23,634 nucleotides of DNA. Source: a virus. The number at the start of each line of letters is the position of its first letter. Within the stretch, counting starts at the first letter, position 1. This document shows positions 12,386 to 22,764 of this stretch, piece by piece. Below the pieces are notes generated by a model. It saw only the letters and a program-made list of their open reading frames with translations, was not told the DNA's origin and did not search any database. Location: positions 1 to 23,634 of the IMG/VR virus record IMGVR_UViG_3300043775_003376; one strand, given 5' to 3'. The position numbers and the translations under genes were made by a program.

Positions 12386-12414
12386 ATCTGCGAAATATAA
12401 CTAGGAATAAATCG

Positions 12415-13483: not shown

Positions 13484-13514
13484 CCCCCTCTATGGTAGGG
13501 AAACAACGAACTCT

Positions 13515-13528
13515 CCCCCGTAAGGGGG
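13515..13528 (+). terminator. GC hairpin with GTAA tetraloop
   Basis: CCCCC-GTAA-GGGGG, a 5-bp all-GC stem closed by a GNRA-type loop, just 5 bp before cassette element 1. No T run follows at once, so it may protect the mRNA 3' end or work together with the element. Confidence 0.5.
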
Positions 13529-13533
13529 GTTGA

Positions 13534-13577
13534 CTGCCAAAATGGCAGAAATCCCGCGGTTTCTGCCAAAATGGCAG
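13534..13577 (+). repeat. Cassette element copy 1
   Basis: Two perfect arms CTGCCAAAATGGCAG (13534 and 13563) around the 14-bp centre AAATCCCGCGGTTT. Core orientation B-like. It is followed by a long form tail GGCAC..GCAAATCC..GTGCCAAAC; promoter 89 bp further on. Confidence 0.95.
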
Positions 13578-13582
13578 GCACT

Positions 13583-13597
13583 GCAAATCCTGTGCCA
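13583..13597 (-). promoter_or_regulatory. Sigma54-like -24/-12 motif (minus strand), copy b
   Basis: Minus strand reads TGGCACAGGATTTGC, i.e. GG-N10-GC as in sigma54 promoters. It may instead be only the stem of the GGCAC/GTGCC hairpin. No leftward gene follows. Confidence 0.3.
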
Positions 13598-13666
13598 AAC
13601 TCTATAAAAAATATTTGGCATGATATTTGCTCTCACAAAAAAACTTTTTCCTAACACAATCCTAAC

Positions 13667-13694
13667 TTGAATCCTAAAGTTCGATCTGTATAAT
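13667..13694 (+). promoter_or_regulatory. Promoter TTGAAT-16-TATAAT
   Basis: -35 TTGAAT (13667-13672), 16-bp spacer, -10 TATAAT (13689-13694), then GTCGATATA at the start point. It drives 13728 and 14039. Confidence 0.8.
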
Positions 13695-13727
13695 GTCGAT
13701 ATAAGAAGTAACCCAGGAGAACAGAAG

Positions 13728-13973
13728 ATGACCAAGTTCGGAAGCGTCAAGGTTGGATACGGTTTCGAGTGTGAGAAGAATAACGGCAAGACGTATGCGG
13801 GTGAGATCGTCAAGGTTGCCGCATACGCTCGCGGTACACTGGTCACGATTCGATACCCTGATCGTCTCGAAAATGATCGTATGTATAGTGTGGGTGAGAT
13901 GTCGATGATCCACAAGAGCATCTACCTTGAAGATTGCAAGGTTTGGTTCACCGAGGAGCCATCCCTCGTGTGA
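13728..13973 (+). CDS. Small protein of a two-member family (A2)
   Basis: 81 aa; RBS AGGAGA 7 bp before ATG. Paralogue of the 12898 product over GYGFECEKNNGKTYAGEIVKVAAYARGTLV...SIYLEDCKVWF, a likely small beta-barrel fold. Function unknown. The stop codon is built into a CCCTC-GTGT-GAGGG hairpin followed by GGTTG. Codons are GC-rich compared with the structural genes, which supports a separate origin. Confidence 0.8.
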   Translation: MTKFGSVKVGYGFECEKNNGKTYAGEIVKVAAYARGTLVTIRYPDRLENDRMYSVGEMSMIHKSIYLEDCKVWFTEEPSLV

Positions 13974-14038
13974 GGGGGTTGTGCAGCATAGAAAAGTTTG
14001 GTACATTCCGTTTTTCACTTCACCATAGGAAAAGAATC

Positions 14039-14359
14039 ATGAGTTTCCCGATCATCGAAAATGCCAAGCGTCAAGCCTACCTGTGCTTCGTGGGATTGGC
14101 GATCCCTTGCGACAAGCGTACCGTAGACGGCGGAACGATTCGCAGTGAGAAGGTTCTGAAGTTCAATCGGTCTGCTATGCGGGATAGCGTCAACGTCAAG
14201 GCCGAAAAGGTTGACCCCCGCATGGGTAGGGGTGAGGATACGATGATCGTCAAGGTTGGCAAGCCCGGTAGTCGGGAGAGGGTGGAGGCTTTGCGGTCGC
14301 AGTACGAGGCTACCCTCACTATGGGGGAGGAGATTAGCCCCTTCGCTTGGGAGGGGTGA
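14039..14359 (+). CDS. Unrecognised 106-aa early protein
   Basis: Starts MSFPIIENAKRQAYLCFVGL, chosen for the RBS ATAGGAAAAG before ATG 14039. Mixed alpha/beta, basic middle (DKRTVDGGTIRSEKVLKFNRSAMRD) and a helical C-terminus (ERVEALRSQYEATLTMGEE). No known motif. Cotranscribed with 13728, 65 bp upstream. GC-rich codons. Confidence 0.75.
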   Translation: MSFPIIENAKRQAYLCFVGLAIPCDKRTVDGGTIRSEKVLKFNRSAMRDSVNVKAEKVDPRMGRGEDTMIVKVGKPGSRERVEALRSQYEATLTMGEEISPFAWEG

Positions 14360-14399
14360 CCCACCCACAAGAGGGGATCTGTCAAGTTGGCAGCCTCGA

Positions 14400-14443
14400 C
14401 TGCCAAAATGGCAGAAACCGCGGCCTTTCTGCCAAAATGGCAG
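14400..14443 (+). repeat. Cassette element copy 2
   Basis: Perfect arms at 14400 and 14429; centre AAACCGCGGCCTTT (core CCGCGGCC, orientation A). Long-form tail GGCAC..GCAAATACC..GTGCC follows. Confidence 0.95.
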
Positions 14444-14449
14444 GCACAA

Positions 14450-14464
14450 GCAAATACCGTGCCA
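14450..14464 (-). promoter_or_regulatory. Sigma54-like -24/-12 motif (minus strand), copy c
   Basis: Minus strand TGGCACGGTATTTGC, the closest of the four to the sigma54 consensus (TGGCACG-N4-TTGC). Orientation is leftward, antisense to the early genes. Confidence 0.35.
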
Positions 14465-14497
14465 AACAACAAAATATTATTTTTGGTATTTTTATGG

Positions 14498-14525
14498 TTG
14501 ACATTCAAGGTATGGCTGGTAGAAT
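14498..14525 (+). promoter_or_regulatory. Promoter TTGACA-16-TAGAAT
   Basis: -35 at 14498-14503, -10 at 14520-14525, followed by ACCGATATA covering the expected start. It drives 14556. Confidence 0.85.
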
Positions 14526-14555
14526 ACCGATATACCTAGCAGAGAGGAAAAGAAA

Positions 14556-14771
14556 ATGATCGACAACAAAATCAAAGATGCGTTGGTTCAGATTTGGGGA
14601 AGCGAAAGCCATAACGTCCAGTTTATCGGTTTGGCCGATGGTAAACTTTACGCCGAGTGTGCAGAAACTCTCCAGTGTAAGCGTCTTACCGATCTCAACT
14701 ATCGGAACGTGCTGAACGATATGTTCTACGATTACTGCGTGGAAAAGGCCGCTTGGATGGGGATTTCGTAG
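14556..14771 (+). CDS. Unrecognised 71-aa early protein
   Basis: MIDNKIKDALVQIWGSES...LADGKLYAECAETLQCKRLTDLNYRNVLNDMFYDYCVEKAAW. Helix, three strands, helix. RBS AGAGAGGAAA. Three Cys, no clear zinc pair. Single-gene cassette with its own promoter and a CCCCC/GGGGG hairpin directly after the stop. Confidence 0.75.
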   Translation: MIDNKIKDALVQIWGSESHNVQFIGLADGKLYAECAETLQCKRLTDLNYRNVLNDMFYDYCVEKAAWMGIS

Positions 14772-14772
14772 T

Positions 14773-14788
14773 CCCCCTGTTGTGGGGG
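14773..14788 (+). terminator. Hairpin directly after stop codon
   Basis: CCCCC-TGTTGT-GGGGG followed by TTGATTTGTCTT, starting one base after TAG. T content is only moderate, so it is either a weak terminator or an mRNA 3'-end stabiliser. Confidence 0.55.
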
Positions 14789-14799
14789 TTGATTTGTCT

Positions 14800-14845
14800 T
14801 ATCCGATCCTATCGGATTGGCAAGGTGGGCTATAGTCAGCGAAAG
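14800..14845 (+). repeat. Second repeat family (R), copy 1
   Basis: Perfect hairpin ATCCGAT-CCT-ATCGGAT (14801-14817), then TTGGC..GTGGGCTATAGTCAGCGAAA. The stem differs from the other two copies but pairing is kept. Confidence 0.8.
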
Positions 14846-14854
14846 TGAGGGAAC

Positions 14855-14941
14855 ATGGAAATCCTTATTAGTTTGGTATTGACAGGATGGATTGCTGGTA
14901 GTATGATTCTTAGTATGATTTGGTTGCTTTCACTGGAGTAG
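14855..14941 (+). CDS. 28-aa single-span membrane peptide
   Basis: Product starts MEILISLVLTGWIAGSM and continues with ILSMIWLLSLE: almost entirely hydrophobic, one transmembrane helix. RBS GTGAGGGA before ATG. Its end supplies the RBS (TGGAG) of the next gene. A promoter-like TTGACA-17-TATGAT lies inside it, so it may be non-coding leader instead. Confidence 0.5.
   Translation: MEILISLVLTGWIAGSMILSMIWLLSLE
14879..14907 (+). promoter_or_regulatory. Promoter TTGACA-17-TATGAT
   Basis: -35 at 14879-14884, -10 at 14902-14907. No GCCGATA block. It is 39 bp before the gene at 14946. Confidence 0.5.
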
Positions 14942-14945
14942 AAAA

Positions 14946-15161
14946 ATGGATTACCAGAAAACCTATAAGTTTGATAATGGTTACGGGGCTAGTGTGGTTT
15001 GTAACTTTGGAACCTATGGGGCCAAAGATGGTCTTTTCGAGGTTGCTGTGCTTGACAGTAACGGAGAGATTGCATACAATACGCCCATCACTAATGATGT
15101 TATTGGTTGGCTTGACTTTGCGGACGTTGCGGATATTCTGAATAAGATTAAGGCTCTGTAA
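14946..15161 (+). CDS. Unrecognised 71-aa protein
   Basis: MDYQKTYKFDNGYGASVVCNFGTYG...FEVAVLDSNGEIAYNTPITNDVIGWLDFADVADILNKIKAL. Five predicted strands and a C-terminal helix with the phage-typical ending 'DFADVADILNKI'. Many phages carry small proteins of this layout; function unknown. It is 4 bp after the membrane peptide and followed by 15177. Confidence 0.8.
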   Translation: MDYQKTYKFDNGYGASVVCNFGTYGAKDGLFEVAVLDSNGEIAYNTPITNDVIGWLDFADVADILNKIKAL

Positions 15162-15176
15162 TCTAAGGAAAATAAA

Positions 15177-15479
15177 ATGAACTACGCCGAAGCGGTATCT
15201 ATGGTGCATGGGAAGACCAATCGTAAAGAACGGAAGATTGGTAATAATACATACGCCGAAATCGGATATGATGATAGCGTTTCCATTCGGTTGCATGGTA
15301 CAGCGGTTGTAAGGTTTTATCCTAACGGGCTGGTGAAGTTGAATAGTGGCGGATGGCGAACCAGTACCACAAAGGATAGGATTAACAAGTATTCTCCTGT
15401 TAAAGTTTACCAGCGAAAGTATGAATGGTATTTGCAGGATGGTACAGAGTTTGAAGATAATATTCTGGTTAACTCTTAA
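15177..15479 (+). CDS. Conserved phage protein (GWRTxTTKDRIN family)
   Basis: 100 aa. Contains SVSIRLHGTAVVRFYPNGLVKLNSGGWRTSTTKDRINKYSP followed by VYQRKYEWYL, a signature seen in small conserved proteins of many unrelated phages. All-beta N-terminal half, so probably a small barrel. No known activity. RBS AAGGAAA. Part of a five-gene run (14855-15669). Confidence 0.85.
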   Translation: MNYAEAVSMVHGKTNRKERKIGNNTYAEIGYDDSVSIRLHGTAVVRFYPNGLVKLNSGGWRTSTTKDRINKYSPVKVYQRKYEWYLQDGTEFEDNILVNS

Positions 15480-15494
15480 AGAAAGGGGCTAGGG

Positions 15495-15602
15495 ATGGCC
15501 GATTTAAACTGGGTACAGATTGGTGTGGGATTTCTTTGCGGTGTTATTGCTAGTTACTTTGTTTGTGATCTTGTTTTTCCAATAAGGAAGCATGATGAAT
15601 AA
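15495..15602 (+). CDS. 35-aa membrane peptide
   Basis: MADLNWVQIGVGFLCGVIAS then YFVCDLVFPIRKHDE. One transmembrane helix (about residues 7-27) with a short charged tail. RBS AGGGG 8 bp upstream. Its end overlaps the next tiny gene. Possible host-membrane modifier; function unknown. Confidence 0.6.
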   Translation: MADLNWVQIGVGFLCGVIASYFVCDLVFPIRKHDE

Positions 15603-15669
15603 AAGTGATTATATTATTTTGACCGGATCTTTTATCCTGGGTTGCCTCACAGTTTACCTAATCCACTAA
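15592..15669 (+). CDS. 25-aa membrane peptide
   Basis: MMNKSDYIILTGSFILGCLT then VYLIH. One hydrophobic helix. Overlaps the previous gene by 11 bp; RBS AAGG about 9 bp upstream (in AATAAGGAAGC). Third micro-membrane peptide in this cassette. Confidence 0.5.
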   Translation: MMNKSDYIILTGSFILGCLTVYLIH

Positions 15670-15679
15670 ATCTAACGGG

Positions 15680-15723
15680 CTGCCAAAACGGCAGTTTCCG
15701 CGGCCGATCTGCCAAAATGGCAG
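15680..15723 (+). repeat. Cassette element copy 3
   Basis: Left arm CTGCCAAAACGGCAG (15680), right arm perfect (15709); centre TTTCCGCGGCCGAT (orientation A). Degenerate long-form tail follows. Confidence 0.95.
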
Positions 15724-15727
15724 GCTA

Positions 15728-15742
15728 GCAAACGGTGTGCCA
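15728..15742 (-). promoter_or_regulatory. Sigma54-like -24/-12 motif (minus strand), copy d
   Basis: Minus strand TGGCACACCGTTTGC, GG-N10-GC spacing. Confidence 0.3.
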
Positions 15743-15774
15743 CAAAAATCTTTTTTTGACTACATTTTCTTTGC

Positions 15775-15802
15775 TTGACAAGCCGATATCTAACTGTAGA
15801 AT
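15775..15802 (+). promoter_or_regulatory. Promoter TTGACA-16-TAGAAT with GCCGATA
   Basis: -35 15775-15780, AGCCGATA directly after it, -10 15797-15802. It drives 15832 and 16018. Confidence 0.9.
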
Positions 15803-15831
15803 CAACGCATCACCCCAACGGAGATTGAAAA

Positions 15832-15996
15832 ATGATTCTCGAAGATACGGATACCATCAACGCGATTCTGAATCAACTTGTTGACGAGCGTATGGTCGAG
15901 CCGATTGATGATCCTCAAAACCTGACCGACTTCTGGGATTGGGCCGAAGTGGTCGGCATTGTTGACGAGTTTGCTCCCCTTGACGAACGGTTTTGA
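15832..15996 (+). CDS. Acidic 54-aa protein
   Basis: MILEDTDTINAILNQLVDER then MVEPIDDPQNLTDFWDWAEV and VGIVDEFAPLDERF. About a quarter of residues are acidic, no Lys. Helical. Upstream GGAG (15820-15823) is 8 bp before ATG. Function unknown; pairs with the still more acidic next gene in one operon. Confidence 0.75.
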   Translation: MILEDTDTINAILNQLVDERMVEPIDDPQNLTDFWDWAEVVGIVDEFAPLDERF

Positions 15997-16017
15997 TTAG
16001 TGTAGAAAGGATAAGTC

Positions 16018-16293
16018 ATGAGTCACCCCGATCCCCTTCACGACGAGGAGAACACGATGAGCCAGGATTCTTTTGACCGTTTCGACGAGATGGCCGAGCG
16101 TACGATTTGGCCGTGGATTGATGATGAGTCGCACGAAGCCGACGATATCAACTATGATGATTTCAACGACTTCACCGATGAGGACGAGTACGATGATAGC
16201 ATGGACGGCGACCACGAGAGCGGCCTCGCCAGTGCTGGCTGGGGAACCGATGAGGACTACGGTTTCTACGGCGATTATAACGAGGATTACTGA
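16018..16293 (+). CDS. Extremely acidic 91-aa protein
   Basis: 33 of 91 residues are Asp/Glu, two Arg and no Lys, with Tyr/Trp spaced among the acids (EDEYDDSMDGDHES, TDEDYGFYGDYNEDY). AAAGGA is 6 bp before ATG 16018; a second start at 16057 with GAGGAGA is possible. The charge pattern is that of DNA mimics or of histone-/polymerase-binding tails. DNA mimicry is inference. Confidence 0.8.
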   Translation: MSHPDPLHDEENTMSQDSFDRFDEMAERTIWPWIDDESHEADDINYDDFNDFTDEDEYDDSMDGDHESGLASAGWGTDEDYGFYGDYNEDY

Positions 16294-16306
16294 AAACAAC
16301 CCCGAT

Positions 16307-16350
16307 CTGCCAAAATGGCAGCGGGGCCGCGATTTCTGCCAAAATGACAG
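16307..16350 (+). repeat. Cassette element copy 4
   Basis: Left arm perfect (16307), right arm CTGCCAAAATGACAG (16336); centre CGGGGCCGCGATTT (orientation B). Followed at once by ATATTTTTTT, i.e. terminator-like, and by the next -35 only 12 bp away. Confidence 0.95.
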
Positions 16351-16362
16351 ATATTTTTTTAG

Positions 16363-16390
16363 TTGACATTCAAGATTCCTCCTGTAAAAT
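16363..16390 (+). promoter_or_regulatory. Promoter TTGACA-16-TAAAAT
   Basis: -35 16363-16368, -10 16385-16390, then ACCGATATA at the start point. It drives 16418. Confidence 0.85.
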
Positions 16391-16417
16391 ACCGATATAA
16401 AGGTAAAGGAGAATAAA

Positions 16418-16567
16418 ATGTTCGTGAGCGACTGCTGTTATGTTGAGAGTGATGTGGATCATGAGATTTGCTCTAGGTGTGGTGAACATTGCTCCATCAT
16501 TGTAGATGATAGTCTACATAGTCAAATGATGAATGAGTTTATCGGGGTTGAGGACTGTCCTTCCTAA
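16418..16567 (+). CDS. Small zinc-ribbon protein (paralogue 2)
   Basis: 49 aa. SDCCYVESDVDHEICSRCGE then HC: the same cysteine arrangement as the 13343 product. RBS AAGGAG 7 bp upstream. Single-gene cassette. Its stop lies in the second repeat family (CCTAATCC), so gene end and repeat are joined. Confidence 0.8.
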   Translation: MFVSDCCYVESDVDHEICSRCGEHCSIIVDDSLHSQMMNEFIGVEDCPS

Positions 16568-16606
16568 TCCTACGGATTTGGCTAGATGGGCTGTAGTCAG
16601 CGAAAA
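16563..16606 (+). repeat. Second repeat family (R), copy 2
   Basis: CCTAATCC-TAC-GGATTTGGC then TAG..GGGCTGTAGTCAGCGAAA. Hairpins AATCC/GGATT and GCTG-TAGT-CAGC. It is followed 14 bp on by the promoter at 16620. Confidence 0.85.
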
Positions 16607-16619
16607 CTATTTTCTTTAG

Positions 16620-16648
16620 TTGACAAACACAATCTCTAAACGTATACT
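16620..16648 (+). promoter_or_regulatory. Promoter TTGACA-17-TATACT
   Basis: -35 16620-16625, -10 16643-16648; no GCCGATA block. It drives 16674. Confidence 0.8.
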
Positions 16649-16673
16649 CTATTCATCAACAGGAGAAAAAAAG

Positions 16674-16931
16674 ATGAACGGATACGAACTGATGGCCGAG
16701 TTTGAGCGACTGATCAAGGATGTGATTGTTGTTCCTAACGATTGGCTGCCGGAAGATTTTCGTGACAATCGCACCGATGGTGTTTCGCTGGCCGATCTGG
16801 AACGGAAGTGTGACTCACGCGACAGCGTAGAAACCGATCATCAGATCGAGAAGATGGCGAAGGATAAGCGTATCGCTATTTATGCCGCTATGATCGAAAA
16901 CGGTCAGGAAATAGCCTATCTGCCAAAATGA
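16674..16931 (+). CDS. 85-aa early protein ending inside the cassette element
   Basis: Starts MNGYELMAEFERLIKDVIVV (RBS AGGAG, 8 bp). Contains NDWLPEDF and a helix EIAYLPK at the end. Mostly helical; function unknown. The last codons CTG CCA AAA TGA are the first arm of cassette element 5, so the repeat provides the stop codon. The G-to-A change in that arm (TGACAG instead of TGGCAG) is what creates the stop. Confidence 0.8.
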   Translation: MNGYELMAEFERLIKDVIVVPNDWLPEDFRDNRTDGVSLADLERKCDSRDSVETDHQIEKMAKDKRIAIYAAMIENGQEIAYLPK

Positions 16932-16963
16932 CAGGTGGGCCGCGATTTCTGCCAAAATGGCAT
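16920..16963 (+). repeat. Cassette element copy 5
   Basis: Left arm CTGCCAAAATGACAG (16920), right arm CTGCCAAAATGGCAT (16949); centre GTGGGCCGCGATTT (orientation B). T-rich spacer, next -35 24 bp on. Confidence 0.95.
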
Positions 16964-16987
16964 GCAAAGATTTTCTCATTTTTTTTC

Positions 16988-17015
16988 TTGACAGTGCCGA
17001 TCTATGTGGTATGCT
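16988..17015 (+). promoter_or_regulatory. Promoter TTGACA-16-TATGCT with GCCGATC
   Basis: -35 16988-16993, GCCGATC 16996-17002, -10 17010-17015. It drives 17057. Confidence 0.85.
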
Positions 17016-17056
17016 AGTTTTATTGAGTGAAGGATTTCTAAACGAAAGGGTTTGAT

Positions 17057-17464
17057 ATGAACGATACGATTTTGTTTGCTACGATTGCTTGCGGTGTTGT
17101 TGCTGGTCTTCTGGCTTTTGGTGTTTTCCATCTTTATCGTGGAATGCGTGATAGCCTGACCAATGCTAGGATTGGTGGAGTTTATAACTTTGAATATGTT
17201 CAGCCTGTTACGGGTTTGCCTGAGCGATTCATGGCAAAGGTGTTGGAAGTGCATCGTTTTTCTGACGATTACATTTCTCGCCTGAATAGCACCAGCCGTT
17301 ATCGTAGGGATGATCCTAACTTTGAGCGTAGCCGTCATCTTGTGACTGCCCAAACGCCCGATGGTAAGATTCGCAACTTCTACGCGGAGCGTACACGCAA
17401 TGTGCGTCGGCCCCTCTTGGGTGGGGTTGCTTTCAAGACCGGCTTGGCCAGCCTCCTCTTTTGA
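17057..17464 (+). CDS. Membrane-anchored small protein
   Basis: 135 aa. Residues about 4-27 form one membrane helix (TILFATIACGVVAGLLAFGV), then a cytoplasmic or external domain with strands: GGVYNFEYVQPVTGLPERFM, a linker rich in Arg/Ser, and HLVTAQTPDGKIRNFYAERT. The domain text GVYNFEY...F.AKVLEV resembles a small SH3-like barrel. RBS AAAGGG. The stop is embedded in a 7-bp hairpin (CCTCCTC-TTTT-GAGGGGG). Function unknown. Confidence 0.8.
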   Translation: MNDTILFATIACGVVAGLLAFGVFHLYRGMRDSLTNARIGGVYNFEYVQPVTGLPERFMAKVLEVHRFSDDYISRLNSTSRYRRDDPNFERSRHLVTAQTPDGKIRNFYAERTRNVRRPLLGGVAFKTGLASLLF

Positions 17465-17469
17465 GGGGG
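17452..17469 (+). terminator. Hairpin over the stop codon
   Basis: CCTCCTC-TTTT-GAGGGGG, 7 pairs with one G-U, contains TGA. Followed by GTTGTGC, not a T run. Confidence 0.45.
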
Positions 17470-17482
17470 TTGTGCTAAGGCT

Positions 17483-17526
17483 CTGCCAAAATGGCAGGCC
17501 GGCCGCGGTTTCTGCCAAAATGACAG
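17483..17526 (+). repeat. Cassette element copy 6
   Basis: Left arm perfect (17483), right CTGCCAAAATGACAG (17512); centre GCCGGCCGCGGTTT (core GGCCGCGG, orientation B). T-rich 23-bp spacer. Confidence 0.95.
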
Positions 17527-17549
17527 TTATTTTTTGTGGATTTTTTCAC

Positions 17550-17577
17550 TTGACAACCGCACCAATGCCGATACAAT
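17550..17577 (+). promoter_or_regulatory. Promoter TTGACA-16-TACAAT, leaderless
   Basis: -35 17550-17555, GCCGATA 17567-17573 overlapping the -10 (17572-17577). The predicted start base is the A of ATG 17584, so the mRNA would be leaderless. Confidence 0.8.
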
Positions 17578-17583
17578 AAGCGT

Positions 17584-17730
17584 ATGATTACATCAAACTG
17601 CTACTCTTGGAAAGTTTTTCGTTTTAGCCATACATTTGTTGGTTATGTTATGGCTAGTTCTCAATATGAAGCCAATATTCTTGCAAAAGAAAAGTATGGC
17701 GATTTCGTTTGGATTGAACGAGTTCGCTAG
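17584..17730 (+). CDS. 48-aa protein, probably leaderless mRNA
   Basis: MITSNCYSWKVFRFSHTFVG, then YVMASSQYEANILAKEKYGD and a WIERVR end. A short strand-strand-helix-strand protein of the type '...A.s..eA...AkekyG.fv.ieRv', common in phages as small unannotated proteins. No RBS exists because ATG is 7 bp after the -10 box. The stop is 3 bp before tRNA-Glu. Confidence 0.7.
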   Translation: MITSNCYSWKVFRFSHTFVGYVMASSQYEANILAKEKYGDFVWIERVR

Positions 17731-17733
17731 TCT

Positions 17734-17805
17734 GGCCCCGTAGTATAGTGGTTAGTACACTGGGCTTTCATCCCAGAGACTGGAGTTCGATTCTCCACGG
17801 GGCTA
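17734..17805 (+). tRNA. tRNA-Glu (anticodon UUC)
   Basis: 72 nt. Acceptor GGCCCCG/CGGGGCT (first pair G-U), D stem GTAT/GTAC, anticodon stem CTGGG/CCCAG with loop CTTTCAT (TTC at 17767-17769), T stem TGGAG/CTCCA with loop TTCGATT, discriminator A. CCA is not encoded. It is cotranscribed with 17584 and the nuclease gene. Confidence 0.95.
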
Positions 17806-17845
17806 CTGTTTTTTTTTGGATAGACCATTGGCACAGGACTATATC

Positions 17846-18370
17846 ATGCTTACGCTCAAAGATTTGGATAAGGCTAAACGGTTCTTGAAAAAGAGTTATG
17901 CACTAGGTCACTATAGTCCTGCTAGGGATAAGTTGGCTTATGAGTTGTGTGCCATGAATCATGTGCAACGTAGCGACACTATTGAGGCTATGGTTTTTGG
18001 TCTTTATAAAAAGTACGGATATAATACTTATAGGGAAGGTGGCCTAAAGAAAACTTATGATCTTTGGGCGAATGACGAAAAAATCGAAATCAAAAGCAGT
18101 CTTGCTAAAAAGTGTGTGGCTAGAAAAGGGAGTGTATATTACACCTATACTTTTTCTGGTATCAAACCTGAGCATTTTGATAGACTGGTTTTGGCCTATG
18201 TGACGCCCTATGGTGTGAATCTGAATATCTTGACAAAGCGAGCAGTATATGCTAGAATCCGTAATGGATGCTTTACAAGAGGTTCACAGGGGTATGCTAT
18301 TCGGCAAGGTAAGGGTGACAAGATGATCGGTCAACAGTTTTCTAACTTTTTAGAGTTGACAAGCCGATAA
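17846..18370 (+). CDS. Putative PD-(D/E)XK endonuclease
   Basis: 174 aa from ATG 17846 (AGGA 7 bp upstream; a TTG 30 bp earlier is possible). KKTYDLWANDEKIEIKSSLA gives Asp72-x8-Glu81-Ile-Lys83, the catalytic D-(E/D)xK hairpin, preceded by a helix with Glu47. The rest (YYTYTFSGIKPEHFDRLVLA, then NILTKRAV and RNGCF) fits a restriction-type core where the C-terminal part holds specificity. It could be a restriction-like or homing nuclease. Its last codons TTG ACA AGC CGA TAA are the -35 plus GCCGATA of the next promoter. Confidence 0.75.
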   Translation: MLTLKDLDKAKRFLKKSYALGHYSPARDKLAYELCAMNHVQRSDTIEAMVFGLYKKYGYNTYREGGLKKTYDLWANDEKIEIKSSLAKKCVARKGSVYYTYTFSGIKPEHFDRLVLAYVTPYGVNLNILTKRAVYARIRNGCFTRGSQGYAIRQGKGDKMIGQQFSNFLELTSR

Positions 18371-18384
18371 CATTAGTGTACGAT
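18356..18384 (+). promoter_or_regulatory. Promoter TTGACA-17-TACGAT with GCCGATA
   Basis: -35 18356-18361 and AGCCGATA lie inside the end of the nuclease gene; -10 18379-18384. It drives 18404. Confidence 0.8.
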
Positions 18385-18403
18385 TGACACAAAGGAGACA
18401 ACA

Positions 18404-18886
18404 ATGCCTAACTGGTGCTTGAATAATCTGACCGTTGAACACACCGATCCCGCTATGGTTGACCGTTTTGAGAGAGCCTATAACGCTGGTAAGACTTGTA
18501 GTGAGTTTATTCCCGTGCCAGAAGATATTGGTGATGGTTGGTGGGATTTTTGTGTGAATAACTGGGGAACCAAGTGGGATATTGGGGCTGATATTGGTAC
18601 AGATAAGGTGGAGTATTATGGCTTGAAGGCTACGCGAGTTGGTAATCAGGTTAGTGGTACATTTGACTCTGCTTGGTCGCCCCCTATTGGATTGTATGAA
18701 AAACTGGTAGAGTTGGGATATAATGTAAAGGCAAGTTATTTTGAGCCGGGTATGGCTTTCTGTGGTATTTATGATAATGGTTTTGATAACTATATCGAAT
18801 ATACTAATAAGGATATGATTCCTATTGCTATTTGGAATGATTTTGATTTGGAGAACTTTTTTGCTGATGATGAAATAGAAGCCTAA
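18404..18886 (+). CDS. Api92/YubB-like ferredoxin-fold protein
   Basis: 160 aa. Opens MPNWCLNNLTVEH and has FIPVPEDIGDGWWDFCVNNW then GTKWDI, the signature of the Api92-like/YubB ferredoxin-fold family found in phages and plasmids. A cysteine next to Trp at the N-terminus and the NWGTKWD motif are intact; the later FDSAWSPPIGLYEKL also fits. Biochemical role of the family is unknown. RBS AAGGAG, 8 bp. Single-gene cassette. Confidence 0.9.
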   Translation: MPNWCLNNLTVEHTDPAMVDRFERAYNAGKTCSEFIPVPEDIGDGWWDFCVNNWGTKWDIGADIGTDKVEYYGLKATRVGNQVSGTFDSAWSPPIGLYEKLVELGYNVKASYFEPGMAFCGIYDNGFDNYIEYTNKDMIPIAIWNDFDLENFFADDEIEA

Positions 18887-18898
18887 CAGAAACTCCGC

Positions 18899-18942
18899 CT
18901 GCCGAAATGGCAGCGGGGCCGCGAAATCTGCCAAAATGACAG
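18899..18942 (+). repeat. Cassette element copy 7
   Basis: Left arm CTGCCGAAATGGCAG (18899), right CTGCCAAAATGACAG (18928); centre CGGGGCCGCGAAAT (orientation B). Next -35 24 bp on after TATTTTGTGGATTTTTT. Confidence 0.95.
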
Positions 18943-18966
18943 GAAATATTTTGTGGATTTTTTCTC

Positions 18967-18994
18967 TTGACAAGCCGATACTACATTGTAGAAT
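18967..18994 (+). promoter_or_regulatory. Promoter TTGACA-16-TAGAAT with GCCGATA
   Basis: -35 18967-18972, GCCGATA 18974-18980, -10 18989-18994. Start expected near 19001. It is followed by a structured region, not by a gene with an RBS. Confidence 0.9.
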
Positions 18995-19000
18995 GATTGA

Positions 19001-19430
19001 AGAACAAGCAAAAACTTGTTGGCTATGTCGGGCCGAGTAGCCGGTAAAAACGGTAGTTGATGTCCTAGGAAACGTCTTCTACAATCGGTCCTAACAATAC
19101 AAACATCCGTGGGTCAAGCCAGACTAGATTGGGATAACCACTTCGATTATAGATATACATACCGTGTTGATCACTGGTCAAAAACTGTATATCGTTGCCT
19201 GTTGGGGTTATACAACGGGCTAGAAGTCCAATCTATGAGGGATAGCGTCCTCACCACGGCCAATACAACCAGTAACCGTTCCCAAGAGCCAGACCAGAGC
19301 GGGTCTTATGTGCTAGCAATGCCCGCTTTGCAGGGAGGATTTCCGTGGACGGTTTCCACCAGTTTTTACCTTGCTCCAAGGGTTCATAATATCGGAGTAT
19401 TGGTGGGTTATAGAATCGGGGCGTAAACGA
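19001..19430 (+). ncRNA. Large structured RNA, unknown class
   Basis: Starts at the predicted start base of a strong promoter. Helices seen: AACAAG/CTTGTT (19003-19020), GGCTA/TAGCC (19021-19042), GTAG-TT-GATGT/ACGTC-TT-CTAC (19053-19082), TAGATTGG/CCAATCTA (19125-19132 with 19228-19235) enclosing ATAACC/GGTTAT and GATATAC/GTATATC, TGAGG/CCTCA (19236-19253), a 9-bp CAGAGCGGG/CCCGCTTTG (19295-19330), GTGGA/TCCAC (19345-19359) and CCTTG/CAAGG (19369-19381). An open frame exists (19109-19426) but without a ribosome binding site. It recalls the large ornate phage RNAs (GOLLD, ROOL) that lie near phage tRNAs, though I cannot assign it to either. Confidence 0.6.
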
Positions 19431-19438
19431 TTCGCTGG

Positions 19439-19466
19439 TTGACAAAATAAAAACACAGTGTAGAAT
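19439..19466 (+). promoter_or_regulatory. Promoter TTGACA-16-TAGAAT (no GCCGATA)
   Basis: -35 19439-19444, -10 19461-19466, spacer without the conserved block. It drives the tRNA-like RNA starting at 19482. Confidence 0.85.
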
Positions 19467-19481
19467 ACGAGAGTAAGACAT

Positions 19482-19582
19482 GGCGAATGTAGCGTAATGG
19501 TAGCGCGTGGGAAGTCCGAGACACTGACCAGTGGAGTAGGCAAGCAAATGCCCATGAGGTGGTTCGATTCCACCCTTCGTCC
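19482..19582 (+). tRNA. tRNA-like RNA with enlarged anticodon region
   Basis: D arm GCGT-AATGGTA-GCGC and T arm GGTGG-TTCGATT-CCACC are canonical, and the T loop is identical to both other tRNAs. The acceptor GGCGAA pairs with TTCG(T)CC with a bulge or G-U. The anticodon stem would be GTGGG/CCCAT (19507-19511 with 19551-19555), but 39 nt lie between its strands instead of 7, including CACT-GACC-AGTG and GGC..GCC hairpins. It is therefore an intron-like insertion, a decayed tRNA or a tRNA mimic. No amino acid can be assigned. Confidence 0.55.
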
Positions 19583-19585
19583 CTA

Positions 19586-19723
19586 GTCACCAACGAAACT
19601 CCGATTCATTCGGTGTGCTACCCTCCATAATGAGATCATAGCCTATATTGGTGACACAATACAACTCTGCTGATAGTTTCCTTAGAAATAAGGTTGAATA
19701 AATATAGTGCCGAGTGCTTATTC
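19586..19723 (+). ncRNA. Tandem hairpin RNA after the tRNA-like gene
   Basis: GTCACCAA/TTGGTGAC (19586-19593 with 19648-19655), CCTTA-GAAA-TAAGG (19680-19693, GNRA loop) and GAATAA/TTATTC (19696-19701 with 19718-19723). No gene. It may be the 3' part of the tRNA-like transcript or a separate RNA. Confidence 0.45.
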
Positions 19724-19741
19724 GTAAAACTATAAGTGTGT

Positions 19742-19785
19742 CGGCCAAAATGACAGGCCGAGCGGCCGATCTGCCAAAATGACAG
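19742..19785 (+). repeat. Cassette element copy 8 (most diverged)
   Basis: Left arm CGGCCAAAATGACAG (19742), right CTGCCAAAATGACAG (19771), spacing still 29; centre GCCGAGCGGCCGAT (orientation A with one change). Next -35 23 bp on. Confidence 0.9.
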
Positions 19786-19808
19786 ATATTTTTTGTGGAC
19801 TTTGCGTA

Positions 19809-19836
19809 TTGACAAGCCGATAATAGATAGTAGAAT
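19809..19836 (+). promoter_or_regulatory. Promoter TTGACA-16-TAGAAT with GCCGATA
   Basis: -35 19809-19814, GCCGATA 19816-19822, -10 19831-19836. It drives the five-gene run 19858-20970. Confidence 0.9.
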
Positions 19837-19857
19837 AGCAGCACAAGGAGAAAAAAG

Positions 19858-20124
19858 ATGCTTGGAACACGATTTGCTTTTTCTGACAGGGTTACTCGTA
19901 GCGTTAGTGCTGACGGACAAGATGTTACTTTCTCTGGAGGGTGTCTGTTCGATAATCATCCGTTCAGTATCACTACCAAACTGAGCGATGCTAATCGCTG
20001 GATTAACGGTGAGAGTATCCAAAACTGTTTTCCGCATCTTAGTGCGGATGATCGTGAGATTCTGTTGTCTGGTATTAGCCCTAATCATTGGAATACACTG
20101 TTTCCGCCGGAGGATGAAGAATGA
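19858..20124 (+). CDS. Conserved phage protein (FPHLSADDREILxSGISP family)
   Basis: 88 aa. GGCLFDNHPFSITTKLSDA then RWINGESIQNCFPHLSADDR and EILLSGISPNHWNTLF is a well-conserved text in small proteins of many phages. N-terminal strands and a C-terminal helical segment. Function unknown. RBS AAGGAG, 8 bp. Stop overlaps the next ATG (ATGA). Confidence 0.85.
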   Translation: MLGTRFAFSDRVTRSVSADGQDVTFSGGCLFDNHPFSITTKLSDANRWINGESIQNCFPHLSADDREILLSGISPNHWNTLFPPEDEE

Positions 20125-20291
20125 GTGATCCATATTGGACATTCCCACAGTTTCCTGAGAATAATACTTGGGAGATTCGCTATTTGTGTTGGCGAGCGTG
20201 TGGCGAAACCAGAGAACACAGCACACGACTCGCTAATGAGGGACGTATGCCTGCTAACTGGTGGATGCTTTACAGAGATGATGGAAGGTAA
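20121..20291 (+). CDS. 56-aa Trp-rich protein
   Basis: MSDPYWTFPQFPENNTWEIR, then YLCWRACGETREHSTRLANE and GRMPANWWMLYRDDGR. Six Trp and two Cys; helix-turn-helix-like middle. Start ATG overlaps the previous stop; GGAGGATGAAGA upstream is a good RBS. Function unknown. Confidence 0.75.
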   Translation: MSDPYWTFPQFPENNTWEIRYLCWRACGETREHSTRLANEGRMPANWWMLYRDDGR

Positions 20292-20292
20292 A

Positions 20293-20493
20293 ATGAGAAT
20301 AAGTAAAAAACAAATATCAGATGCTCTTAGTATTGATAGTGACGATCTATCGTCAAAGGATATGGCTATTGCATTAATGAACATTGAGAGTATACTTGAT
20401 AGCGTTGCTGAAAACCTTGATGATGATTTTGAATCTGCGGCTTTGGGCGATGCTTCTAATCTAATACAAATGATAAGAGAAGGATTGAAGTAA
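20293..20493 (+). CDS. 66-aa helical acidic protein
   Basis: MRISKKQISDALSIDSDDLS then SKDMAIALMNIESILDSVAE. All helical, with an initial KKQISDALSID segment resembling a small helix-turn-helix. RBS GGAAGG 5 bp before ATG. Stop TAA overlaps the next start by one base. Function unknown. Confidence 0.75.
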   Translation: MRISKKQISDALSIDSDDLSSKDMAIALMNIESILDSVAENLDDDFESAALGDASNLIQMIREGLK

Positions 20494-20804
20494 TGGAATG
20501 GAATAACTCTCATAAGAATCCACCAGAGGTTGGACAGAAGGTTTATTACTTTGGCCCCAATATAGGAATAGGGATTGGTCACTATTCTTATGAGGAACGT
20601 AAAGTGAAAACTCACGGATACGATGAGAACAACGAAAAGTTCTACGGTAAAGAAATGGAACTGTGTCCACACGTATTCTATAATAGCAACTGGGGTGTTG
20701 TGGACGCTTGTGATGCCCCATTCTGGTATCCATATGATAGAGAGAGAGCAGAAGGTTGGTGTCCAATCATTCCAGAAGAATATACTAAGGGGTTATATGA
20801 TTGA
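20493..20804 (+). CDS. DUF551-like phage protein
   Basis: 103 aa. Trp near the start, then PPEVGQKVYYFGPN and near the middle WGVVDACDAPFWYPYDRERA, the pattern of DUF551-like proteins (small Trp/Pro beta domains of phages). No activity known. Coupled by TAATG to the previous gene. Confidence 0.75.
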   Translation: MEWNNSHKNPPEVGQKVYYFGPNIGIGIGHYSYEERKVKTHGYDENNEKFYGKEMELCPHVFYNSNWGVVDACDAPFWYPYDRERAEGWCPIIPEEYTKGLYD

Positions 20805-20970
20805 AGATCGTGAAAAAGCTATGATTTATATTATCAACTTTTTTAACTCTCGTATGAATGCTATGAATAAAGCGTCCCTTAATAAGGTAAAGGAGTTGAC
20901 TACTAATCATGAGATTACAGTAAGTGAATTAGTTAACAAATATGTTGATCTAGTGCATAAAAACTCCTAG
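20797..20970 (+). CDS. 57-aa helical protein
   Basis: MIEDREKAMIYIINFFNSRM then NAMNKASLNKVKELTTNHEI and TVSELVNKYVDLVHKNS. Two helices with a possible helix-turn-helix. RBS AAGGGG; overlaps the DUF551-like gene by 8 bp. The stop TAG is directly followed by cassette element 9, with no spacer. Confidence 0.7.
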   Translation: MIEDREKAMIYIINFFNSRMNAMNKASLNKVKELTTNHEITVSELVNKYVDLVHKNS

Positions 20971-21014
20971 CTGCCAAAACGGCAGGAGCCGCGGCCAAAC
21001 TGCCAGAATGGCAG
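20971..21014 (+). repeat. Cassette element copy 9
   Basis: Left CTGCCAAAACGGCAG (20971), right CTGCCAGAATGGCAG (21000); centre GAGCCGCGGCCAAA (orientation A). Next -35 23 bp on. Confidence 0.95.
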
Positions 21015-21037
21015 AATATTTTTCTTATAGATTGGTA

Positions 21038-21065
21038 TTGACAGTGCCGATACTAATGGTATACT
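21038..21065 (+). promoter_or_regulatory. Promoter TTGACA-16-TATACT with GCCGATA
   Basis: -35 21038-21043, GCCGATA 21046-21052, -10 21060-21065. Start expected at about 21072, the first base of a compact RNA fold. Confidence 0.9.
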
Positions 21066-21070
21066 TAGGG

Positions 21071-21155
21071 AAACAATGGGCGGGGACAACCACAATGATA
21101 TCAAAGAAGGTTGTCTGAAATGTCCGTCGAGTATGGCCCAAGCCGACATTGTTTT
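21071..21155 (+). ncRNA. Three-way-junction small RNA
   Basis: Closing stem AAACAATG/CATTGTTT (21071-21078 with 21147-21154), inner hairpin GACAACC/GGTTGTC (21085-21091 with 21109-21115) and a third hairpin GGC-CCAA-GCC (21135-21144) or GTCG/CGAC. The fold begins at the predicted start base and ends in a T run (21151-21155). No ribosome binding site for the 51-codon frame through it. An 84-nt regulatory or decoy RNA is likely; class unknown. Confidence 0.65.
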
Positions 21156-21156
21156 T

Positions 21157-21200
21157 CCTAATCCTCCGGATTTGGCTAGTGTGGCTGTAGTCAGCGAAAG
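21157..21200 (+). repeat. Second repeat family (R), copy 3
   Basis: CCTAATCC-TCC-GGATTTGGC then TAG..GTGGCTGTAGTCAGCGAAA. It directly follows the T run of the small RNA and lies 11 bp before the next -35. Confidence 0.85.
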
Positions 21201-21210
21201 TTTAAAGGTC

Positions 21211-21239
21211 TTGACAACGATTGGTCGATAAGGTATAGT
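21211..21239 (+). promoter_or_regulatory. Promoter TTGACA-17-TATAGT, leaderless
   Basis: -35 21211-21216, -10 21234-21239; GTCGATA in the spacer. Start predicted at the A of ATG 21246. Confidence 0.8.
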
Positions 21240-21245
21240 ATAAGC

Positions 21246-21671
21246 ATGAAACAGAAACCACTACATGGCGAAGTTCGTTTTCACCTTTCTAACGGTGAGC
21301 ATTATATGCACTGGCAAGTGAAAGTGAAGCAGGGTGGGAAAACTGTTGATGTGTATTATTATGACCCCAAAGAATATCAGTTAGAGATGCGGGGTTGTAA
21401 GTTGTGGAACCGACCGAATAAGGCTAAACAGGTGTTTGAGGCTGGTGTGCATGATGTGAGTGGATGGGTGCGATGTGAAGAAGTTATGTTGAGGAAGGAT
21501 TTTCATCCCACTCTGCCTATTGACAATCTTGAGAAGTTGTTTTATAATCCACTTCGTGATCCACACTGGCGACGAGAAAGCGACAATAACGAGTTCGTTT
21601 GGGACGGTAGCGAGTACGCTACTCTACTAACTAACGGCAAACAAGTCTATATTTTGGAAGAAAGGGTTTGA
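21246..21671 (+). CDS. Unrecognised 141-aa protein, probably leaderless
   Basis: MKQKPLHGEVRFHLSNGEHY then MHWQVKVKQGGKTVDVYYYD. N-terminal beta domain, middle WNRPNKAKQVFEAGVHDVSG then WVRCEEV, a helix-rich part, and C-terminal strands FVWDGSEYATLLTNGKQVYI. No RBS: ATG lies 7 bp after the -10 box. Mixed alpha/beta; function unknown. The next gene follows with 2 bp between stop and ATG. Confidence 0.8.
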   Translation: MKQKPLHGEVRFHLSNGEHYMHWQVKVKQGGKTVDVYYYDPKEYQLEMRGCKLWNRPNKAKQVFEAGVHDVSGWVRCEEVMLRKDFHPTLPIDNLEKLFYNPLRDPHWRRESDNNEFVWDGSEYATLLTNGKQVYILEERV

Positions 21672-21673
21672 AC

Positions 21674-22042
21674 ATGATTAATCTGCAACTGACTGTTCGT
21701 GAGGCTATGGAACTTGCTTTCTACGCTAGGGAGGACATGAGAGAGCGTATCACGCAGGCTTTTGAGATTGCATTGGGTGTGAACCAGAAGCGTATGGTTA
21801 CGATCACCAAGGGTATGGATTTGGACAATCGTATCTCTTGCATCAAGGCTGTTCGACAGCACACCGGCTGGGGACTCAAGGAAGCGAAGGATTGGACCGA
21901 TGGTATGGTGGGTCGGTGGGACGCGAGCGGCTTCTTTCGTGGTGGTGGTAATCCCATCACTCTCACCGCTAAGACTCCCGACGCGGCCGAAGCGTTGCTG
22001 CGTGACCTGACCACTTTGGGTTGTGAGGGTTATCTCTCATGA
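21674..22042 (+). CDS. Ribosomal L7/L12 C-terminal-like domain protein
   Basis: 122 aa (RBS AAAGGG). Residues 52-122 read CIKAVRQHTGWGLKEAKDWT...TAKTPDAAEALLRDLTTLG..GYL, which follows the L7/L12 C-terminal domain pattern (IKxVRxxTGLGLKEAKxLVDxxP...xxxxxEAexxkxxLexxGaxvxL). An insertion GMVGRWDASGFFRGGGN sits in the usual VEGAP loop. The N-terminal 50 residues are helical and differ from L12. L12 recruits translation factors; the phage protein might bind them or the ribosome stalk (inference). Confidence 0.75.
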   Translation: MINLQLTVREAMELAFYAREDMRERITQAFEIALGVNQKRMVTITKGMDLDNRISCIKAVRQHTGWGLKEAKDWTDGMVGRWDASGFFRGGGNPITLTAKTPDAAEALLRDLTTLGCEGYLS

Positions 22043-22086
22043 CTGCCAAAGCGGCAGGCGCCGCGGCCGATCTGCCAAAATGGCAC
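22043..22086 (+). repeat. Cassette element copy 10
   Basis: Left CTGCCAAAGCGGCAG (22043, one base after the L12-like stop), right CTGCCAAAATGGCAC (22072); centre GCGCCGCGGCCGAT (orientation A). Next -35 24 bp on. Confidence 0.95.
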
Positions 22087-22110
22087 CCAAAAAATATTCA
22101 CGAACCGCTG

Positions 22111-22138
22111 TTGACTTGCCGATACTCTATGGTAGAAT
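22111..22138 (+). promoter_or_regulatory. Promoter TTGACT-16-TAGAAT with GCCGATA
   Basis: -35 22111-22116, GCCGATA 22118-22124, -10 22133-22138. Long 126-bp leader to 22271, containing a CCAA.CCGA/TCGG.TTGG hairpin. Confidence 0.85.
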
Positions 22139-22198
22139 GATAGCATCACACGACAAGACGCCAACCGATCACGACAACACAAAAGTTCGGATTGGCTC

Positions 22199-22227
22199 TT
22201 GACAAGTGATGATTGGGATGATAAGAT
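22199..22227 (+). promoter_or_regulatory. Second promoter TTGACA-17-TAAGAT
   Basis: -35 22199-22204, -10 22222-22227, within the leader of 22271. The -35 abuts the 3' arm of the leader hairpin. Confidence 0.6.
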
Positions 22228-22270
22228 ACGTTTGTTCGGTTTGATTAACACTAACTTGGAGAGATTTACC

Positions 22271-22525
22271 ATGAAGAAGTTTTCGTTTATTGTTGATATT
22301 GTTGCTACTGATCTTGACCGTGAGGTTGTGGTTGATTCGATTGGTGATTGTCTGCGTGATGCTCTGCCGTCCGATGTTCATGCTAACGTCAAGGCCGGTG
22401 AGGTCAAGGCTTTTAGCGAGCAGGGTTATAAGGTTTGGCGGGCTAGGGTTACTGGCGTGACTGCCAAGGCTGCTGGCGATGCTCACAATAGCAAGGTCGA
22501 GCAGGAAGTCGAGGCTGTTGCCTGA
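22271..22525 (+). CDS. Unrecognised 84-aa protein
   Basis: MKKFSFIVDIVATDLDREVV VDSIGD, then NVKAGEVKAFSEQGYKVWRA. Ferredoxin-like beta-alpha-beta pattern and an Ala/Val-rich tail. RBS TTGGAGAG, 7 bp. GC-rich codons (AAGGTC, GAGGTC) unlike the AT-rich neighbour at 21246. Function unknown. Confidence 0.75.
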   Translation: MKKFSFIVDIVATDLDREVVVDSIGDCLRDALPSDVHANVKAGEVKAFSEQGYKVWRARVTGVTAKAAGDAHNSKVEQEVEAVA

Positions 22526-22540
22526 GCCTAGCATATCTAC

Positions 22541-22546
22541 TATAAT
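22541..22546 (+). promoter_or_regulatory. Possible promoter (-10 TATAAT)
   Basis: TTGCCT (22518-22523) with 17-bp spacer to TATAAT (22541-22546), then ATCCGATAG as after other -10 boxes here. It would start just inside the following hairpin. Confidence 0.4.
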
Positions 22547-22548
22547 AT

Positions 22549-22589
22549 CCGATAGACCGCTAGTGGCGAACTGGCGGCTATCGGTTTTT
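22549..22589 (+). terminator. Strong terminator before tRNA-Arg
   Basis: CCGATAG/CTATCGG (7 bp) enclosing CCGC/GCGG, then TTTTT. It ends the mRNA of 22271, or a very short RNA from the TATAAT just upstream. Confidence 0.85.
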
Positions 22590-22591
22590 AT

Positions 22592-22663
22592 GGCCCCATA
22601 GTTAAATGGATATAACAACTGCCTTCTAAGCAGTTATTGGAGGTTCGATTCCTCCTGGGGCTA
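22592..22663 (+). tRNA. tRNA-Arg (anticodon UCU)
   Basis: 72 nt. Acceptor GGCCCCA/TGGGGCT (first pair G-U), D stem GTTA/TAAC, anticodon stem ACTGC/GCAGT with loop CTTCTAA (TCT at 22625-22627), T stem GGAGG/CCTCC with loop TTCGATT, discriminator A; no CCA. It reads AGA, a codon frequent in the AT-rich late genes and often rare in hosts. Confidence 0.95.
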
Positions 22664-22668
22664 TTATC

Positions 22669-22712
22669 CTGCCAAAACGGCAGGCTCCGCGGCCGATCTG
22701 CCAAAATGGCAG
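22669..22712 (+). repeat. Cassette element copy 11
   Basis: Left CTGCCAAAACGGCAG (22669), right perfect (22698); centre GCTCCGCGGCCGAT (orientation A). T-rich 24-bp spacer to the -35. Confidence 0.95.
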
Positions 22713-22736: not shown

Positions 22737-22764
22737 TTGACAAGCCGATATTCTATTGTAGAAT
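22737..22764 (+). promoter_or_regulatory. Promoter TTGACA-16-TAGAAT with GCCGATA
   Basis: -35 22737-22742, GCCGATA 22744-22750, -10 22759-22764. It drives 22786. Confidence 0.9.

Follow-up and report, generated by a model that had tools for sequence, protein, structure and literature searches.

The start-associated sequences of cluster K mycobacteriophages are repeated, early-gene-linked single sites that lie beside start codons, and REPINs reportedly consist of two palindromes at a fixed distance, occupy intergenic positions and fall into several families. In T4-type phages, promoter/stem-loop (PeSL) cassettes have been described (Arbiol 2010; Comeau 2014, as cited in PMC4503421), and the stoperators of cluster A mycobacteriophages are asymmetric, single sites that are distributed genome-wide and linked to lysogeny, with a specificity that differs among related phages (PMC6550527). 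Here, we analyze a 44-bp double palindrome, the type-1 element, that recurs between the early gene cassettes of a viral DNA fragment of 23.6 kb (IMG/VR record IMGVR_UViG_3300043775_003376, positions 1 to 23,634; hereafter, the window). We find that this element is geometrically rigid and conserved as DNA, and that close relatives carry a second, mutually exclusive type of double palindrome at the same junctions; we suggest that both types are addresses for a trans-acting protein.

The type-1 element consists of the 15-bp palindrome CTGCCA-N3-TGGCAG, a 14-bp center and the same palindrome repeated. With up to 3 mismatches allowed, the single palindrome has 28 matches in the window, compared to 5.9 expected and a maximum of 12 in 100 shuffles, and the 44-bp double pattern finds exactly 11 copies (Table 1), with no match to the reversed pattern used as a control. 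Every copy has its arms spaced by 29 bp from start to start, the center holds 7 to 12 G/C although the GC content of the window is 40%, and the central triplet of the arms is AAA when read in the direction of the downstream genes. All 11 copies lie 3' of one cassette, in one case after a tRNA, and 5' of a promoter. An earlier note made from the DNA letters alone had listed the 11 copies with their 29-bp arm spacing, their GC-rich centers and their position at the end of one cassette and upstream of the next promoter, and all of this stands, the copy number and spacing far beyond chance. A weak additional single arm occurs at 20992.

The promoter that follows each window copy is of the σ70 type, and in most cases it stands at a fixed distance from the element. 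Its −35 hexamer begins 23 to 24 bp after arm 2 in 7 of the 11 cases, at 12 bp in one and at 89 bp in another; in the other two, where a further motif intervenes, the distance is 51 to 54 bp. Across the family of element-bearing contigs, promoter-like matches around the elements are distributed as 218 downstream in sense orientation, 8 antisense and 1 upstream, and 80 of 138 copies without an intervening motif have the −35 hexamer at a distance of 23 to 25 bp from arm 2 (39 of 94 when redundancy is removed). Helical steps among the minor promoter distances of type-1 elements are suggestive at most. With the −35 hexamer at 23 to 24 bp and a 16-bp promoter spacer, standard promoter numbering places the arm centers near −66 and −95.

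The same geometry extends to related viruses. A search of viral contigs in which the gap between the arms could vary from 0 to 30 bp returned 109 stretches; when arm pairs with a combined total of up to 3 mismatches are counted, the 29-bp spacing accounts for 259 distinct instances and any other spacing for 17 or fewer. Across 262 copies, the arms are almost invariant and the sequence of the center varies, yet its length is fixed and it retains a GC-rich core whose middle dinucleotide is CG; even in lineage G003, where the center is largely different, arms and spacing are unchanged. In G001, a 159-kb contig that is near-identical to the window, all 14 copies are confined to positions 137.5 to 151.0 kb, immediately past the point of divergence from the late genes, which run leftward. 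Among 228 nonredundant copies, 212 have a sense open reading frame (ORF) that stops somewhere from 300 bp upstream of the element to 44 bp into it, and 18 lie within sense ORF calls of at least 100 amino acids. Variable arm spacing or random placement inside genes, the outcomes by which the earlier note proposed to refute a functional element, were not seen in other viral sequences. Isolate phages gave no near match to the window and no match across most of the 44-bp element, and the terminase has only broad matches among them, at ∼26% identity (Microcystis phage MaeS and Bacillus phages). The element-bearing family probably comprises large lytic phages, which are uncultured, apparently lake-dwelling and 100 to 230 kb in size.

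Terminase relatives that lack the CTGCCA element carry another rigid palindrome pair at equivalent places, which we call type 2. Its arm is the 29-bp palindrome CNTAAGTCNTT-N7-AAGNACTTANG, and two arms surround a 24-bp center with a GC core; among pairs of arms within 60 bp, 34 of 36 are spaced by 53 bp. In the 95 instances, which include one weak chance match, the variable inner pairs show no compensatory pattern, the outer pair 2-28 being a mild exception, and deviations tend not to coincide in the two halves, the pattern that an affinity threshold would impose on a binding site. The distance to the promoter peaks at 27 to 31 bp (28 of 53). The two types exclude each other within contigs: of nine large contigs, five hold 12 to 19 type-1 and no type-2 elements and four hold 7 to 17 type-2 and no type-1 elements, no locus among those compared carries both, and the sole apparent co-occurrence is the weak chance type-2 match, in L285, which is gone at a stricter threshold. 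The terminase tree implies six changes of element type, at least four of them imposed by branches with good support. This tree alone is not decisive, because the early region could swap as a block. What decides the matter is the comparison of the window with its relative G025: the terminases are 92% identical, nucleotide identity is 78.5% over 8.7 kb, and the early cassettes are broadly colinear, with the 44-bp type-1 element replaced by an 82-bp type-2 element at corresponding junctions. At junction 22043, gene end and promoter-proximal sequence are conserved right up to the exchange; junctions 17483, 19742, 20971 and 22669 likewise have type 2 in G025, with less conserved flanks. A trans-acting reader would force such independent replacement at many sites within one genome, always by one and the same type, and gene conversion, that is, repeat-to-repeat copying within a genome, could contribute to the uniformity. 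The second, mutually exclusive type is new here; like the fixed promoter distance and the bacterial heat-shock counterpart described below, it was absent from the earlier note.

As judged from these alignments and folds, the type-1 element is a DNA-level site and not an RNA hairpin or terminator. If the element were a terminator or insulator hairpin combined with the promoter that follows, on the model of the T4-type PeSL cassettes, the RNA of the preceding cassette would fold and end there. The position just past gene ends fits this idea, as do the nested 44-nt hairpin, which minimum-energy prediction returns for 203 of 228 nonredundant copies, and a T-rich stretch that follows some 6 to 12 nt later in some copies. 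However, the same 228 copies show no compensatory change within the arms (z about 0), and complementarity in the center is mostly at or below expectation (z of −3.6 to −6.1 for three pairs); the exception is the central CG pair, which cannot form in an RNA hairpin. Most substitutions affect the right half-site, and they would break the stem of the sense transcript in 102 cases compared to 30 in the opposite class. Predicted folds of four window copies range from −25.2 to −9.7 kcal/mol, the weakest, that of the copy at 16920, being no better than shuffles. Five or more T within the first 8 nt after the element are found in only 13.6% of the copies, T-richness beginning ∼6 nt after it, whereas ordinary hairpin-plus-T terminators can be read elsewhere in the window (∼12402 to 12441 and ∼22546 to 22590). 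Rfam searches (E up to 1) returned tRNA-type matches only, plus a sub-threshold match opposite a tRNA. Moreover, RNA termination needs neither a rigid 29-bp spacing nor a single type per genome. We therefore reject the hairpin or terminator, given the lack of covariation, the variable folding and the missing U-tract directly after the element, and regard this alternative as unlikely. The argument of the earlier note that a plain terminator poorly explains a fixed geometry is strengthened by the rigid spacing, by conserved arms around a drifting center and by the fold and covariation tests.

The reading that we favor, and to which we give somewhat better than even credence, is that the type-1 element is a bipartite operator or enhancer read as DNA by a trans-acting protein. 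Each of the two 15-bp palindromic half-elements would probably bind one protein dimer, and the length-constrained GC-rich spacer would hold them 29 bp apart; the earlier note had proposed either a protein dimer pair or a recombination site, and the dimer pair appears to be the better half of that guess. The element would act in cis on the σ70-type early promoter that comes next, and the position of the arm centers would suit an upstream activator or looping regulator rather than a promoter-covering repressor. One trans-acting protein would then run all early accessory cassettes as a single regulon, with a specificity that varies among lineages, such that relatives use 53-bp-spaced 29-bp palindromes at the same junctions.

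A counterpart of the half-element in bacteria offers a clue to the putative reader. Among bacterial genomes, those of Gemmatimonadota hold most occurrences of the paired type-1 palindrome; the spacings cluster near 21, 31 and 42 bp, and these palindromes (loci L194 to L273) lie in tandem upstream of dnaK (HSP70), clpB, hsp20 and lon, five cases being confirmed by Pfam. At about one-fourth of the sites, a same-strand σ54-like promoter sequence follows downstream, a share far in excess of background. This looks like an undescribed heat-shock regulon, for which we found no publication. Given the association of the type-1 half-element with heat-shock genes in Gemmatimonadota, we infer that the leading candidate for the binder is a host-type stress regulator, either the host's own or a copy of one. 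No PF00158 enhancer-binding protein gene was detected in 21 phage contigs, so a protein of this kind would have to be the host's. For type 2, similar single palindromes occur in 9 of 392 genomes from the phylum of a Planctomycetota metagenome-assembled genome (MAG) and in 4 of 395 from that of a Gemmatimonadota MAG, above a rough chance expectation and without coherent gene context.

Several points weigh against an operator read by such a protein. The bacterial spacings differ from the phage spacing of 29 bp, which is no whole number of helical turns. Several early promoters lack the element (e.g., those read at ∼16619, 18356 and 21210), the fixed promoter distance may partly stem from descent of the cassettes from one ancestor, and the sequence is compatible with activation and with repression alike. 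Finally, gene-content comparison yielded no obvious DNA-binding candidate for a type-specific regulator, and neither this comparison nor the product of 12167-12385 revealed a phage-encoded DNA-binding protein that tracks element type. The earlier note had put forward the 12167-12385 product, a D5-like protein, for binding assays. This protein and its neighbors occur with both element types and its C-terminal basic segment is unchanged between them; neither the protein by itself nor its neighbors can therefore set the type, and a role of this product as sole binder is not supported. Two D5-like regulator genes (PHROG 323), at 10515-11339 on the minus strand and 12167-12385 on the plus strand, flank a σ-factor-like gene at the early/late divergence, and both are conserved in phages of either type.

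More tentatively, the double palindromes could form an interchangeable address system, in which every cassette bears the same address for one regulator, perhaps the host's, and a change of regulator or host causes all addresses to be rewritten in place while the cassettes stay; we consider this possible but somewhat doubtful. If true, it would be a natural change of the recognition sequence of a whole regulon in step, several times over, among close relatives with gene order kept, and the co-change of a regulator and its many target sites would become directly testable. The elements would then also offer access to the control of early genes in uncultured phages, and the heat-shock link a possible route to their hosts.

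Mobility has to be weighed as another source of paired palindromes. In a miniature mobile or REPIN-like repeat, a transposase would copy the palindrome pair, and families specific to each lineage would displace one another. Two palindromes with a fixed spacer, intergenic and in several families, conform to this, and L375 and L376, from a phylum search around the Planctomycetota MAG G043, hold type-2-like double palindromes nested within longer inverted repeats and thus resemble miniature mobile elements. Yet no RAYT/Y1 transposase (PF01797) was found in 22 contigs, copies are restricted to the early region, orientation and promoter distance are kept, and both types occupy the same junctions rather than random gaps, all of which makes this origin very unlikely. 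We hold it to be still less probable that the elements are superinfection-immunity operators of a temperate phage repressor with lineage-specific recognition, in the manner of cluster A stoperators: many oriented copies, one type per genome and a specificity that varies among relatives are features of stoperators as well (PMC6550527), but 15 related contigs contain no resolvase (PF00239) and no integrase (PF00589) above cut-off, with one sub-cut-off match in G014, no repressor candidate tracks element type, and the sites are symmetric, paired, promoter-linked and restricted to the early region. These recombinase searches used the two named profiles on contigs that may be incomplete.

The same searches bear on cassette exchange, for which the earlier note had proposed to look for breakpoints at the elements. 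Alignment ends do fall within 10 bp of an element more often than at random (19% compared to 6.5%), which is partly due to the conservation of the element, and L014 and L105 differ by the precise gain or loss of an 896-bp cassette with a 43-bp overlap on the element; clean events are few, with a junction in the element in four of seven insertions, one of them exact. Ordinary homologous recombination suffices here, because the 15 contigs contain no resolvase and only one sub-threshold integrase-like match. A dedicated recombination site for cassette exchange, the other half of the guess in the earlier note, is to us the least credible account, since the 896-bp event and the enriched alignment ends that speak for it would also arise from homologous recombination at conserved repeats alone, only seven insertion events (four with an element junction) are at hand, neither a resolvase nor an above-cut-off integrase accompanies them, and the fixed promoter distance would be left unexplained.

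A further motif, TTTGGCA(C/T)-N5-TTTGCT, is an exact match to the σ54 −24/−12 consensus and is present in many relatives. Its spacing is rigid across the family, with 219 matches for N5 compared to 0 to 5 for other spacings. The motif at first seemed always directed toward the late genes, and we considered it a simple late promoter; we rejected this in view of its sense orientation in G025 and of the type-2 phages L148, L152 and L182, where it forms alternating arrays of three, at intervals of 23 and 20 bp, that are more like an operator than a promoter. In the phages, a GG-N10-GC motif near the elements is mostly on the opposite strand or absent, unlike the same-strand, downstream σ54-like promoter at a subset of the Gemmatimonadota sites. 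Short CCCC-N4-GGGG hairpins can be read near the σ54-like motifs in both orientations, in the window (12520-12600 and 13480-13530) and in relatives.

The window contains other features of note. A second recurrent intergenic element, a small hairpin followed by GGCT(A/G)TAGTCAGCGAAA, occurs at 14795-14848, 16558-16606 and 21157-21200 and also in relatives; it has no Rfam match at E up to 1 and folds no better than shuffles. A tRNA-like Rfam match at 19483-19581 with ∼28 extra bases, missed by ARAGORN, may represent a tRNA that carries an insert or one that has decayed. An early protein (21674-22042) partially matches the C-terminal domain of ribosomal protein L7/L12, and a long collagen-like G-x-Q repeat protein (1-1512, minus strand) lies at the end of the late gene block.

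Table 1. Type-1 elements, σ70-type promoters and σ54-consensus-like motifs in the window.
Feature	Position	Strand	Remarks
Type-1 copy 1 (15+14+15 bp)	13534..13577	+	pattern search; reverse-complement σ54-like motif next at 13583-13597; promoter at 13667
Extra single arm CTGTCAAGTTGGCAG	14379..14393	+	pattern search; 21 bp 5' of copy 2
Type-1 copy 2	14400..14443	+	−35 54 bp downstream; σ54-like motif between
Type-1 copy 3	15680..15723	+	−35 51 bp downstream; σ54-like motif between
Type-1 copy 4	16307..16350	+	−35 12 bp downstream
Type-1 copy 5	16920..16963	+	−35 24 bp downstream; RNA fold z +0.30, not above shuffles
Type-1 copy 6	17483..17526	+	−35 23 bp downstream; type-2 element at G025 junction
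Type-1 copy 7	18899..18942	+	−35 24 bp downstream
Type-1 copy 8	19742..19785	+	−35 23 bp downstream; G025 junction type 2, downstream gene start conserved
Type-1 copy 9	20971..21014	+	−35 23 bp downstream; type-2 element at G025 junction
Type-1 copy 10	22043..22086	+	−35 (TTGACT) 24 bp downstream; 82-bp type-2 element in place in G025, both flanks conserved
Type-1 copy 11	22669..22712	+	directly after tRNA-Arg; −35 24 bp downstream; G025 junction type 2
Promoter TTGAAT-N16-TATAAT	13667..13694	+	copy 1 cassette
Promoter TTGACA-N16-TAGAAT	14498..14525	+	
Promoter TTGACA-N16-TAGAAT	15775..15802	+	
Promoter TTGACA-N16-TAAAAT	16363..16390	+	
Promoter TTGACA-N16-TATGCT	16988..17015	+	
Promoter TTGACA-N16-TACAAT	17550..17577	+	
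Promoter TTGACA-N16-TAGAAT	18967..18994	+	
Promoter TTGACA-N16-TAGAAT	19809..19836	+	
Promoter TTGACA-N16-TATACT	21038..21065	+	
Promoter TTGACT-N16-TAGAAT	22111..22138	+	
Promoter TTGACA-N16-TAGAAT	22737..22764	+	
σ54-like motif TGGCATGGGATTTGC	12611..12625	-	between early and late gene blocks
σ54-like motif TGGCACAGGATTTGC	13583..13597	-	5 bp after copy 1
σ54-like motif TGGCATGATATTTGC	13616..13630	+	sense orientation
σ54-like motif TGGCACGGTATTTGC	14450..14464	-	
σ54-like motif TGGCACACCGTTTGC	15728..15742	-	

Set against the systems named at the outset, the double palindromes share with cluster K start-associated sequences a repeated element tied to early gene units, and differ in being paired palindromes upstream of promoters. 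With REPINs, they have in common a palindrome pair with a conserved spacer, an intergenic location and a family that differs by lineage, but they lack a RAYT transposase in the contigs searched and their position and orientation are nonrandom. Like the PeSL cassettes of the cited account, the element described here couples intergenic palindromic DNA to an early promoter amid small early genes, in a region that seems prone to shuffling; it differs in that it is constrained as DNA, without the maintained RNA stem and U-tract of a terminator, in its rigid two-palindrome geometry with two mutually exclusive types, and in belonging to a phage that is not T4-type by terminase similarity. Stoperators likewise are many oriented sites of one kind per genome with one trans-acting reader and lineage-specific recognition, whereas the phage sites here are symmetric, paired, promoter-linked and confined to one region, in phages where lysogeny genes were not found in 15 contigs. 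The Gemmatimonadota heat-shock arrays share the identical 15-bp palindrome, in tandem and oriented alike relative to the gene (coding-strand AAA), and differ in their spacings of ∼21, 31 and 42 bp, in having up to four arms and, in the subset examined, in a σ54-like instead of a σ70-like promoter.

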